From assembly GCF_900110025.1 (NCBI RefSeq), contig NZ_FOCE01000004.1, positions 62,001-126,000 on the forward strand: 64,000 nt of DNA, read 5' to 3'. Source of the stretch: Gemmobacter aquatilis. Lineage in GTDB: Bacteria > Pseudomonadota > Alphaproteobacteria > Rhodobacterales > Rhodobacteraceae. The translations under genes were made by a program, and so were the position numbers. Below, piece after piece: positions 31,760-63,882 of the stretch. Below the pieces are notes generated by a model. That model had not been told where the DNA came from and searched no databases. It was given only the letters and a program-made list of their open reading frames with translations. Numbering within the stretch: position 1 is the stretch's first letter; the number at the start of each line of letters is the position of its first letter.

Positions 31760-33370
31760 ATGGCACTTAATCTGACGATGACCTCTCAAAACGAAGAGTT
31801 GAAGCCGCGCATCACCGTTTTCGGGGTGGGCGGTGCTGGCGGCAATGCGGTCAACAACATGATCGACAAGCAGCTTGAGGGGGTGGAATTCGTCGTCGCC
31901 AATACCGACGCGCAGGCCCTGCAGCAAAGCCGGGCAGATGCCAAGATCCAGATGGGGCCGAAGGTCACCGAAGGTCTGGGCGCGGGTGCCCGCCCGACCG
32001 TGGGGGCCGCCGCCGCCGAGGAAACCATCGAAGCCATCGTGGACCATCTGGCGGGGGCGCATATGTGCTTCATCACCGCCGGGATGGGTGGCGGCACCGG
32101 CACCGGCGCTGCCCCGATCATCGCGCAGGCCGCGCGGGAACTGGGCGTGCTGACGGTGGGTGTTGTGACCAAGCCGTTCCAGTTTGAAGGCAACAAGCGG
32201 ATGCGTCAGGCCGAGGAGGGCATCGAAGCCCTGCAGAAGGTCGTCGATACGCTGATCATCATTCCGAACCAGAACCTGTTCCGTCTGGCGAACGAGCGCA
32301 CCACCTTTACCGAAGCCTTCGCCATGGCCGATGACGTGCTGTATCAGGGCGTCAAGGGTGTGACCGATCTGATGGTGCGCCCCGGCCTGATCAACCTCGA
32401 TTTCGCCGACGTGCGCTCGGTGATGGACGAGATGGGCAAGGCGATGATGGGCACCGGCGAAGCCTCGGGCGAGGATCGTGCGGTTCAGGCGGCGGAAAAG
32501 GCGATTGCCAACCCGCTGCTGGACGAGATCAGCCTGAATGGCGCCAAGGGCGTGCTGATCAACATCACCGGCGGCTACGATCTGACGCTGTTCGAACTGG
32601 ACGAAGCCGCGAACATCATCCGCGAGAAGGTGGACCCGGACGCGAACATCATCGTGGGTTCCACGCTGGACACCGGCATGGAAGGCGCGATCCGCGTGTC
32701 GGTCGTGGCGACCGGCATCGACGCTTCGGCGGCGAACCGCGCCGAAACCCCGTCGCGCCGCCCGATGGGCAGCGCCGCGCCGACCTTCGCCCCGGCGCCC
32801 GAGCCGAAGGTCGAAGCCCGCCCGGCTGCCGCTGCCGCGCCGCAACCGGCCCCGCAGCCCGCGCAAGCCGCCCTGTTCGAGGCGCCGCAGCCGCAAGGCT
32901 TCCAGCCGCGCGCGGAACAGGACGAGGTGTTTGACGACATGCCGGCCCCCGCCTATCGCCCGCAGCCCGCCGCCCAGCCGGCGCCGCAGGGCCGCAGCTT
33001 TGCCGCGCATGACGAAGATGCCGCCTCTTTCGTGGCGCCGCGTCCGCGCTCGGCAGGCCAGCCCTCGCCCGAGGCGATGGCGCGTCTGCAGGCAGCCGTG
33101 ACCAAGAACCCGGCCACCGCGCAGCGCCCGCAACCCGCCGCGCGTCAGCCCGCACCGCAACCGGCCCCGGCGCCGCGCGCGGCGGAAAAGCCGCGTTTCG
33201 GCATCGGCTCGCTGATCAACCGCATGGCGGGGCATTCGGCGGAACCGGCGGTGGAGCGTGCGCCCGCCCGCCAGCAGCCGCAGGTCGCGGCCTATGACGA
33301 CGAGCCGGAGCCTTCGGCGGATCAGGAGCGGATCGAGATTCCGGCTTTCCTGCGCCGTCAGGCGAACTGA
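31760..33370 (+). CDS. ftsZ: Cell division GTPase FtsZ with long linker
   Basis: A 536-residue tubulin-like GTPase that forms the division ring. The GTPase domain takes about residues 1-320, with [14 protein letters not shown] at the N-terminus and the tubulin signature GGGTGTG at 110-116. A Pro/Ala/Gln-rich linker of about 170 residues follows, and the conserved C-terminal peptide EIPAFLRRQ that contacts FtsA closes it. The long linker is typical of Rhodobacterales. It has its own upstream region (216 bases) holding a terminator and a dyad, so it can be transcribed separately from ftsQA. Confidence 0.97.
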
Positions 33371-33401
33371 CGCTGCGGAAATCGGTAACATTTGTTGACG
33401 T

Positions 33402-33430
33402 AAAAGCCCGGCATGCCGGGCTTTTTCTTT
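33402..33430 (+). terminator. Intrinsic terminator after ftsZ
   Basis: A stem AGCCCGG (33405-33411) / CCGGGCT (33416-33422), extended by flanking A/T pairs, with loop CATG is followed by TTTTTCTTT. It ends ftsZ transcription. Confidence 0.85.
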
Positions 33431-33488
33431 TGATGAATCAGGGGGTTGTGGCGGCTGTGGCGGAATGTTGCAGGGCGTGGGACCGACT

Positions 33489-60830: not shown

Positions 60831-61178
60831 ATGGAAAACCCCGGCGCGCTGGCGGGCGCGACCGGGGCTAATTGCGATGTCGAGAAACATCAACCGAAAG
60901 AATACAGTCATCGCCTCGCTTGGGCAATGGCCTTGCGGCAGGCGATTCGGGAATGCGACCCGCTGGACGCCGCGCTAATCCTGTCCGACGAACTGGAACG
61001 CCTGCGGCAAGGCGCACCTATCCCGCCGTTGATGAATGCCATGGAGGAAGCACGGCACTGGGCGGCATGGGCCACCCCGTTCGAGGTGAAGGCCTACTGC
61101 CTCGCCTGCTTTCAGGCCATGTCGCCCAAGGATCAAGCCGGGTTCCTCGCCTATGTGACAGGGAGGGCAGCGGCATGA
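60831..61178 (+). CDS. Hypothetical protein, phage-associated
   Basis: A 115-residue protein of unknown family. Largely helical and charged (YSHRLAWAMALRQAIRECDP; DAALILSDELERLRQ). AAGGGATCGGAA lies before the ATG. It opens the phage-like gene string at the right end and overlaps the next gene by ATGA, so they are co-translated. It may be part of the phage regulatory or packaging region, but nothing in the sequence proves this. Confidence 0.5.
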   Translation: MENPGALAGATGANCDVEKHQPKEYSHRLAWAMALRQAIRECDPLDAALILSDELERLRQGAPIPPLMNAMEEARHWAAWATPFEVKAYCLACFQAMSPKDQAGFLAYVTGRAAA

Positions 61179-61432
61179 AGGAGCGCTGCGCCGAAGAATG
61201 CCTGTTCCATTGGTCTGCCGTGGTTAAGGCTGCCAGTTCCGGTTGGGAACAACAGTTCGCTGCCGAAATCGCCAAGAAGGCTGAAAAGCCATGGTGGCGC
61301 CCCACGGCCAAGCAGTTGGTCATCATGCGCCGCATGACGGATGCCCTGTTCTATGGGGATGCTGCCAGCCTGATCGAAGTGGAGCGACCCGTGCCCGTCC
61401 GCACCAGCAAGGGAGGGCACCGCGCAGCCTGA
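61175..61432 (+). CDS. Hypothetical protein, phage-associated
   Basis: An 85-residue protein starting ATG 61175, with ATGA overlap of the previous gene's stop and GGGAGGGCAGCGGC upstream. MKERCAEECLFHWSAVVKAA, then a helical charged middle; three cysteine residues lie near the N-terminus. No family match. It precedes a structured 383-base gap. Confidence 0.5.
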   Translation: MKERCAEECLFHWSAVVKAASSGWEQQFAAEIAKKAEKPWWRPTAKQLVIMRRMTDALFYGDAASLIEVERPVPVRTSKGGHRAA

Positions 61433-61442
61433 CCGCGTGAAC

Positions 61443-61702
61443 CTGTGCTGATTGGACGGTTCAGACGGTGGCGTTCAGCACAGTAACGGCCTGCCACGGG
61501 GCGATCCCATAGGCCAACCGCAGCCCGAAAGCTCGAAGCGGGGGATCAGGCGCCAGACCCGGCGCCTTTAAGTAGCGAGCAAGCCCGAGGCGGGGTCATA
61601 CGACCTCGGGCGCCCAGAAGCGATGGACCGGCTCCGTTGAGCAGATCTTCACGCAGAGGGCTAGGGACCAACCTGTGCCGAAAGGCACGGGCTGGTCTCC
61701 CT
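61443..61702. other. Structured gap with four stem-loops
   Basis: The 383-base gap 61433-61815 carries no convincing gene but four hairpins: CTGTGCTGA (61443-61451)/TCAGCACAG (61475-61483); GGCGCC (61549-61554)/GGCGCC (61561-61566); GCCCGAGG (61583-61590)/CCTCGGGC (61604-61611); and a long stem at 61663-61702 with GAAA tetraloop (61680-61683). AGGGC and GCCCT flanks of the last can extend its pairing. It lies upstream of HNH and terminase genes. Possible roles: non-coding RNA, packaging (cos/pac) site, or intron remnant; none proven. Confidence 0.45.
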
Positions 61703-61815
61703 ATGCCCTTCGCTCCGAACCTCACCATTGAGCAGTGAAACCTTACGAGACTGACTATGAACGAAAGAGACGCGAACTTGAAAACTTGGTGCGCAGATGC
61801 ACAAAAGGCGGCGTG

Positions 61816-62205
61816 ATGGCACATTGGCCTTACAACACTTCAAAATGGGCGCGGCTGCGCGAGGCCAAACTGTCGGCAACTCCGCTCTGCGAAATCTGCA
61901 CCCGGCGCGGCCTGATCGTGGAAGCAGTGGCCGTCGATCACTTCAAGCCCATCAATCAAGGCGGTTCGCCTTTCCCTGAAATGTCTGGCCTGCTGTCGCT
62001 CTGCCTGCCGTGCCACAACGAGAAGACCGCCAGCTTCGACAAGCCAGGCGGCCAGACATTTAGGCGCCGGTTCAAAGGGTTCGACGCGAACGGCAACCCG
62101 ATTGACCCCTTCGATGCCTGGCATGGGGGGGCTTCAGGGACGGTGAACCCGCAGCAGAAGACCGGCGGAGTAAACAAGCGCAGACTTAATAACAAATGTA
62201 GCTAA
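61816..62205 (+). CDS. Phage-type HNH endonuclease
   Basis: A 129-residue HNH protein: CEIC and CLPCHNEKTASF zinc knuckles frame VAVDHFKPINQGG with the catalytic His. Phage HNH proteins beside terminase genes assist DNA packaging in lambdoid-like phages. ATG 61816 follows AAAGG at 7 bases, and the codons upstream of it in the frame (from 61735) have lower third-base GC than the gene itself, so the longer start is less likely. It sits 18 bases before the terminase. Confidence 0.8.
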   Translation: MAHWPYNTSKWARLREAKLSATPLCEICTRRGLIVEAVAVDHFKPINQGGSPFPEMSGLLSLCLPCHNEKTASFDKPGGQTFRRRFKGFDANGNPIDPFDAWHGGASGTVNPQQKTGGVNKRRLNNKCS

Positions 62206-62223: not shown

Positions 62224-63882
62224 ATGGGGCAGCGTGGGATCGGGGCGAAACCCAAACATCTGCATGTGGTGGAACAGCGCGCGCCGGACCTGTTCCACCC
62301 CGAGGGCTTCCGCCCGCAACCTGCCGCGATGCCGTGGGATGCCCCCGGCCAGAGCCGCGTTGACCGCGTGGTGGCTTTTCTAGAATACCTGCCGATCACC
62401 CAGGGCAAGCTGGCCGGGCAGAAGCTGCGCGTTCGCCCCTTCCAGCGCCGGTTTCTGGAAGCCGTCTATGCGGAAGACGACGAAGGCGGGCGCCCGGTGC
62501 GCACTGCCGTCCTGTCGATGCCCCGCAAGAACGGCAAGACCCAGCTCGTCGCAGGCCTTGCCCTGTGCCACCTGCTTGGCCCCGAGGCCGAACAGCGCGG
62601 CGAAATCTATGCCGCCGCGAACGACCGCTTCCAGTCGGGCAAGACCTTCAACGAAATCGTCGCCATCCTGGACGAACTGCCCGATCTGGACTCCCGCGTG
62701 AACGTGACCAAGTTCCGCAAGGAAATCGAGGTGCTGGCAGGCCCCGGCAAGGGGTCGATCTTCGCTGCCTTGTCTGCCGATGCGGCGGGCAAGCATGGGC
62801 TTTCGCCGTCCTTCATCGTCTATGACGAACTCGGGCAGGCCCCCAAGCGCGACCTTTACGAAGCCCTTGATACCGCCATGGGCGCCCGTGACAATCCGCT
62901 GATGGTGGTGATTTCCACCCAGGCCGCCGACGATCACGCCATCATGTCGGAACTGGTCGATTACGGCCAGCGCCTGAACGCGGGCGAGATGGAAGACCCG
63001 GCCTTTCACCTGACCTTCTACGGCGCCACCGATCAGGATGACCCATGGCACCCCGACACCTGGGCGAAGGCCAATCCCGCCCTGGGCGATTTCCGCAGCC
63101 TGTCGGATGTGCAACGCCAGGCGGCGCAGGCGCAGCGGATGCCAAGTGCCGAACACAGCTTCCGCAACCTGATCCTGAACCAGCGCGTCAGCGCCCATGT
63201 GCGCTTCATCGCCAAGGCGGAATGGGACATGAACAGCGCCGCCCCCCGCGCCGATCTGCGCGGGTGCCCCTGCTTTGCCGGGCTGGACCTGTCGGCCAGC
63301 CGCGACCTGACGGCCTTTGTTCTGGTGTTCCCCGATGACGCAGGCGGGTTCGATGTGCTGCCGCGCTTCTACCTGCCCGAAGCGGGCCTGCGCGAAAAGG
63401 CCGAGGCGGATCGGGTGCCCTATGATGTCTGGGCGCGGCAAGGGCATCTGACGGCCATTCCCGGCGCGGTGGTCGATCCGTCTTTCGTGGCACAGGATAT
63501 TGCCGAGGCGGCGGCGGAATACGATCTGCAAGGGCTGGCCTATGACCGCTGGCGCATCGAGGATCTGAAACGCGAGCTGGCGAACATCGGCGCCGAACTG
63601 CCGCTGCGCGAATTCGGCCAGGGCTTCCGCGACATGGCCCCGGCCATCGACACGCTGGAACGGCTGGTGGCCGAAGGCAAGCTGCGCCATGGCGGTAACC
63701 CGATCCTGACCATGTGCGCCAGCAACGCAGTTATCGAACGGGACGCGGCGGGCAATAGGAAGCTGGCCAAGCATAAGAGCACGGGCCGAATAGACGGGAT
63801 GGTGGCTCTTGCCATGGCCCTGGCCGCATCTGGGCGGGTTGAGGAGGCGGCAATTCCTGCGTGTCTGGCGGAGTTTCTTTAG
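62224..63882 (+). CDS. Phage terminase large subunit
   Basis: A 552-residue terminase (Terminase_1 type) that packages phage DNA. Walker A-like MPRKNGKTQLVAG is near residue 99, Walker B-like FIVYDELGQAP near residue 198, and nuclease acidic residues appear in FAGLDLSASRDLTAFVLV and YDRWRIEDL, with GRIDGMVALAMALA near the end. The N-terminal GAKPKHLHVVEQ resembles the start of small terminase proteins, although the small subunit gene itself is not obvious nearby. No portal or capsid genes are reached before the window ends. Confidence 0.88.
   Translation: MGQRGIGAKPKHLHVVEQRAPDLFHPEGFRPQPAAMPWDAPGQSRVDRVVAFLEYLPITQGKLAGQKLRVRPFQRRFLEAVYAEDDEGGRPVRTAVLSMPRKNGKTQLVAGLALCHLLGPEAEQRGEIYAAANDRFQSGKTFNEIVAILDELPDLDSRVNVTKFRKEIEVLAGPGKGSIFAALSADAAGKHGLSPSFIVYDELGQAPKRDLYEALDTAMGARDNPLMVVISTQAADDHAIMSELVDYGQRLNAGEMEDPAFHLTFYGATDQDDPWHPDTWAKANPALGDFRSLSDVQRQAAQAQRMPSAEHSFRNLILNQRVSAHVRFIAKAEWDMNSAAPRADLRGCPCFAGLDLSASRDLTAFVLVFPDDAGGFDVLPRFYLPEAGLREKAEADRVPYDVWARQGHLTAIPGAVVDPSFVAQDIAEAAAEYDLQGLAYDRWRIEDLKRELANIGAELPLREFGQGFRDMAPAIDTLERLVAEGKLRHGGNPILTMCASNAVIERDAAGNRKLAKHKSTGRIDGMVALAMALAASGRVEEAAIPACLAEFL

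Follow-up and report, generated by a model that had tools for sequence, protein, structure and literature searches.

The plasmid ColE1 needs no plasmid-encoded initiator; its RNA opens and primes the origin (PMC5043065). Here we describe a structured RNA of alphaproteobacterial phages and their relatives which may likewise recognise the DNA of its own element. It lies at positions 61443–61735 (+ strand, about 293 nt) of a 64,000-nucleotide stretch of Gemmobacter aquatilis DNA (assembly GCF_900110025.1, contig NZ_FOCE01000004.1, positions 62,001 to 126,000; hereafter the window, to which all coordinates refer unless stated otherwise), in a phage-like element. The RNA contains a short sequence that is found again at its 3′ end as a direct repeat. 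It is absent from Rfam 15, and our search of the open-access literature found no description of it.

Masukata and Tomizawa (1990) reportedly found that an upstream G-rich loop of ColE1 RNA II has to pair with the template DNA close to the origin; such an arrangement makes a direct repeat. The RNA described here is comparable in that it is a long folded RNA, apparently working in cis, with a segment identical to a downstream site and able to pair with the template strand there. It differs in having a bipartite guide with an unmatched centre and a spacing of ~90 nt, in being carried by phages, satellites and islands, and in that no antisense RNA I has been identified. There is no sequence or Rfam relationship between the two, and no homology is claimed.

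Other described systems share part of this organisation. The put RNA of phage HK022 and the EAR element of Bacillus are, like the present RNA, structured RNAs that lie in cis ahead of long operons, either in phages or in large clusters. HK022 put is much shorter, and to our knowledge neither put nor EAR has a covarying direct repeat. The bridge RNA of IS110 has left and right guide arms which surround a fixed centre and match the DNA of its own element; here, in contrast, both arms have the same orientation, there is no second (target) loop, and no IS110 recombinase is present among the annotated neighbours of the RNA loci. Antisense control by P4 CI RNA and P1 C4 also involves element-specific short repeats in a phage or satellite leader, but in our case no antisense partner was found within the element. 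Finally, in gene content the satellites that carry the RNA may be akin to capsid-forming phage-inducible chromosomal islands (cf-PICIs), with small integrase, AlpA-like, packaging and capsid genes and a lack of tail genes; they differ in host range and gene order, and we know of no cf-PICI with this RNA.

A pseudoknotted RNA with a covarying direct repeat

A first-pass annotation, made from the window's sequence alone, had proposed that positions 61443–61702 may form a structured non-coding RNA with four separate stem-loops. This stretch of 260 nt folds with an energy of −122.1 kcal/mol, compared to −105.2 ± 5.0 kcal/mol for dinucleotide-shuffled versions (n = 200, z = −3.4), and none of the 200 shuffles folded as well. 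A DNA search of 395 genomes of one bacterial family, one per genus, returned about 20 homologues, the alignment of which contains many compensatory changes (RNAalifold). In 19 sequences the 44 pairs of the model, two pseudoknots included, are 96.4% paired, with compensatory changes in 33 of them; the covariation score is 0.568, against 0.166 for shuffled controls and at most 0.133 when the pairing is slid by one to three columns. For 58 distinct sequences, in an alignment which was itself fitted to the structure, the nested pairs score 0.547 against 0.149. The same helices and pseudoknots are recovered by a mutual-information scan of a MAFFT alignment that was given no structure. On the + strand G·U occurs in 123 cells and A·C in 33, which identifies this as the structured strand. 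The covariance check in homologues that the first-pass annotation had suggested therefore favours an RNA, and we regard it as near certain that the RNA family and its covarying repeat are real. The Rfam 15 scan, also suggested there, gave no family at its gathering score and none credible below it for 61443–61702, group I and II introns included, and ARAGORN detected no tRNA.

The predicted structure is real but was understated: the fold is a pseudoknotted core rather than four independent stem-loops, and the element is a little longer than was proposed. Its extent is based on homologues and covariation, the 5′ end being placed at helix P1 and the 3′ end at the end of the second repeat copy; the core model, R1, covers 61486–61645. 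P1 (61443–61483) is the perfect 9-bp stem already seen in the first-pass annotation and pairs 61443–61451 with 61475–61483; the GUGG of its loop (61468–61471) pairs with CCAC at 61494–61497 to give P2, which is pseudoknot-like. Helix PA (61499–61502 with 61612–61615) closes the core. Within PB (61503–61547), 61503–61508 pairs with 61542–61547 and an extension joins 61518–61521 to 61538–61541; its pairs are 98.7–100% paired. Pseudoknot 1 (61488–61515) joins GGCC at 61488–61491 to GGCC at 61512–61515, with compensatory changes in all four pairs. Pseudoknot 2 (61531–61580), formed between the loop GCUCG (61531–61535) and CGAGC (61576–61580), is 100% paired, compensatory in three of its five pairs, and the strongest mutual-information signal in the scan. 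The PC hairpin (61548–61567) is one of the helices of the covariation test, and the PD hairpin (61583–61612) shows compensatory changes in nine of ten pairs. The long hairpin with a GAAA loop, which the first-pass annotation had also picked out, is present towards the 3′ end at about 61658–61708 and has a covarying stem and a loop (61680–61683) that does not covary. At many other loci (for example L039, L177 and L120) an extra GC-rich hairpin is found directly before P1, ~20–75 nt upstream of the core, with both sides of its stem varying from locus to locus (e.g. ACCCCGC...GCGGGGC); it is not evident in the window.

The mutual-information scan also revealed column pairs that are identical, not complementary. 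The same 8 nt follow a conserved GGCUCCG inside the RNA and, ~90 nt later, a conserved UCACCA at the 3′ end, and the three nucleotides preceding these two motifs match as well, forming a left arm of 3 nt. In the window, copy 1—the putative internal guide—is found at 61627–61644 (ACC at 61627–61629, GGCUCCG at 61630–61636 and UUGAGCAG at 61637–61644) and copy 2 at 61719–61735 (ACC at 61719–61721, UCACCA at 61722–61727 and UUGAGCAG at 61728–61735), both on the + strand. For copy 2, the exact sequence TCACCATTGAGCAG occurs once in the window's genome.

The arms vary widely among the 91 loci analysed, 80 of them distinct: examples are TTGAGCAG, CCGACAC, TTGTGAG, AAAGCCATC and GTCGTCTG, and there are 40 distinct 8-mers. 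Over these 8-mers, the two arms of a locus are identical at 7.18 of 8 positions, compared to 3.90 for shuffled partners (20,000 shuffles, maximum 4.75), and identity falls to background at position 10. On a tree of the RNA built without the arms, copy 1 has changed at least 34 times and copy 2 at least 40 times. At positions 2–7, joint changes of both copies are about as numerous as single ones, position by position, indicating that changes in the arms are shared between copies. Where the copies do differ at these positions, a G in copy 1 faces an A in copy 2 nine times (the reverse never), C faces T three times, and the remaining differences number three. No complement of the arm is present within the element above chance, whether exact or allowing G·U (53 with G·U, against 62 expected). 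In RNA, the two copies of a direct repeat cannot base-pair with each other, and with no complement above chance in the element, this leaves the template (bottom) strand of the copy 2 DNA as the sole partner known to be present. The repeat was also considered as an attachment (att) site and rejected, as most elements have two copies only, with no flanking third pair.

Distribution and genetic surroundings

At a cut-off of E ≤ 0.001, a covariance model of the 158-nt core detects the RNA in 35 of the family's 395 genera, with 29 strong and six weak matches. Gene context and the repeat back five of the weak matches (L106–L110); the sixth, L111, has neither phage context nor repeat and is a false match. 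The RNA is also found in eight other genomes of a class-wide sample and in two others of a phylum-wide sample, both belonging to the same class. Pattern matches in genome contigs that were confirmed by the model (42 of 42 loci) are all from Alphaproteobacteria, among them Rhodobacter capsulatus DSM 1710 and Paracoccus denitrificans DSM 413, while those outside the class failed the model and are attributed to chance. Initial patterns applied to viral contigs gave three matches, mostly chance, and then none; blastn of the window region against phage records returned chance similarity only, and two further queries nothing. With divergent family members as queries, the RNA was located in an isolated phage, Paracoccus phage Shpa. 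A single copy is present in the genome from which the window was taken. Two copies in different elements were seen in each of three genomes: the arms differ between the copies in G036 (L037 and L097) and G963 (L120 and L122), and copy 1 is the same in both copies of G014 (L044 and L100). Within the alphaproteobacteria, the carriers of the family are temperate phages, satellites that encode a capsid, and defence islands.

The element in the window is tail-less and ~10 kb in length, and many RNA-bearing IMG/VR contigs measure 9–12 kb. Its genes on the + strand comprise ORF1 (cluster c1; 60831–61178, 115 aa) and ORF2 (cluster c4; 61175–61432, 85 aa) upstream of the RNA, and the HNH endonuclease gene (61735–62205, PF01844) and the gene for the terminase large subunit, TerL (62224–63882, PF20441 and PF03354), downstream. 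Capsid, protease and portal genes, a small helix-turn-helix or AlpA-like gene (sub-threshold helix-turn-helix matches only) and an integrase gene lie beyond the window. No recognised replication gene is present in the element, and no convincing att repeat was found at its ends. The ~2 kb that separate TerL from the capsid gene (64100–66000 on the window's scale) contain no convincing gene; the element may be partly decayed. ORF1 and ORF2 have no Pfam or PHROG match; of 62 loci, 26 have a relative of ORF1 upstream of the RNA, the satellite relatives of ORF2 stop ~30–40 nt before helix P1, and both ORFs persist at loci where terminase identity is down to ~28%.

Genes around the other loci, called with a simple open reading frame script, are diverse. 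The head module has been swapped for a lambda-like one in L127 and L035; in the latter the RNA is 92% identical to that of the window, the packaging module downstream is different, and the junction falls near the end of the RNA. Defence genes beside the RNA include type I restriction–modification genes (L120, L098), BrxA and BrxC of a bacteriophage exclusion (BREX) system (L117) and a type IIG enzyme (L178), and QatC-like genes lie near L044 and L160. The carriers use different recombinases (tyrosine and serine) and several terminase types, and no protein is common to all loci. The association with HNH and terminase genes noted in the first-pass annotation did not hold in general: the HNH link is incidental and the RNA is not tied to one terminase. 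Helicase and primase/Toprim genes precede the RNA in L101. In Shpa it occupies 33.0–33.3 kb of the record and comes after genes for helicase and primase; a further 5 kb separate it from the end of the record and from the start of HNH/TerS/TerL, the record ends being taken as genome ends. Two annotated genes of the Shpa record (KR072689, locus L177) overlap the RNA, gp47 (33048–33227) and the start of gp48 (33267–33443), and these annotations may be spurious.

What the RNA may do

We judge it close to an even chance that this RNA uses its built-in bipartite guide to recognise the DNA of its own element, and that its carriers use it as an element-specific origin or DNA-targeting signal consisting of RNA only. 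More tentatively, we suggest that it acts in cis and seeds an R-loop on the DNA that encodes it, the most likely role of which would be to prime replication in the manner of ColE1 RNA II. As RNA polymerase passes the 3′ site, the folded RNA would offer copy 1 to the template strand of copy 2, which we infer to be its partner. This pairing would seed a persistent RNA–DNA hybrid, spreading into the purine-rich tract that directly follows copy 2 (61736–61815, + strand); trimmed to a primer, the hybrid would allow the excised element to begin replication with no initiator of its own, the part that RNA II plays in ColE1. Averaged over ~70 loci, the 60–80 nt past copy 2 are purine- and A-rich, with a purine fraction of 0.60–0.68 compared to 0.51–0.57 upstream of control genes, and this holds also where no gene starts within 90 nt. 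Priming from an R-loop also agrees with the lack of recognisable replication genes, with the position of the RNA after replication genes in Shpa and L101, and with the G/A asymmetry between the copies, as such mismatches would be tolerated as rG·dT in this orientation. The promoter-like site just upstream of the RNA at five related loci, described below, is likewise in its favour.

Several observations weigh against priming. The GGCUCCG and UCACCA centres are not matched between the copies, and an unmatched centre is not needed for simple priming. The three C-to-T differences, all at arm position 2, fit a common RNA partner better than a DNA strand. In Shpa the GC skew does not turn at the RNA, so that an origin at this point gains no support from it. 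The RNA is also carried by phages that encode a helicase and a primase themselves, such as Shpa and L101, and one copy resides on an Agrobacterium plasmid which has its own replication initiator gene.

Two other explanations are each rather unlikely, but deserve consideration. In the first, the RNA would be a leader which modifies RNA polymerase in cis, bringing about processive antitermination of the HK022 put or Bacillus EAR type into a head, restriction–modification or BREX operon. On its own, the put RNA both binds to the elongation complex and suppresses termination (PMC9378689), and at many loci the present RNA stands upstream of long cargo or late operons. At five loci (L040, L099, L044, L100 and L160), which are related prophages with divergent upstream genes, a sigma70-like promoter of the TTACAA-17-TATACT/TAGAAT type was recognised by eye ~40–120 nt upstream of the core, so that the RNA would be the 5′ end of a transcript. 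Antitermination leaves the covarying direct repeat and its two spacers unexplained, and by the rough gene caller the next gene is on the opposite strand in 21 of 81 loci.

In the second, both copies would bind one trans-acting partner, either an antisense RNA comparable to P4 CI RNA or P1 C4 or a protein of changing specificity, and thereby provide element-specific immunity or control. A single RNA partner could accommodate every G/A and C/T difference between the copies through G·U pairing. On the other hand, no such partner was found in the element, no protein is shared by all loci, and the unlike conserved spacers, GGCUCCG and UCACCA, do not resemble two equal binding sites.

It is less probable still that the RNA guides an enzyme, the 3 + 8-nt guide directing it to cleave, nick or recombine the DNA of the element itself at the 3′ site, where cargo modules would be exchanged. 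A bipartite guide around a fixed unpaired centre would suit this role, as would the module junction near the RNA end between L035 and the window despite their 92% RNA identity, but the loci do not share any nuclease or recombinase. A packaging signal (cos or pac) or packaging RNA, which the first-pass annotation had raised and which the adjoining terminase genes in the window and many satellites might suggest, is improbable: the distance of 5 kb to the end of the Shpa record and to its terminase argues against a packaging site, and the RNA is kept with unrelated terminase types and occurs in islands without terminase, where restriction–modification or BREX genes lie downstream instead of packaging genes. 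The remaining proposal of a group I or II intron remnant, prompted by a large structured RNA adjoining an HNH gene, can be set aside together with that of chance hairpins in GC-rich DNA, given the lack of any Rfam intron match, the distinct flanking genes, covariation far above the controls and a fold that is conserved throughout rather than decayed.

These results add a widespread and highly structured RNA family to those known from phages, and its self-match points to RNA–DNA or RNA–RNA recognition. If an R-loop does form on the element's own DNA, this would explain how ~10-kb satellites and defence islands multiply without recognisable replication genes, and would provide a compact replicon or targeting module, made of RNA only, for use in alphaproteobacteria.
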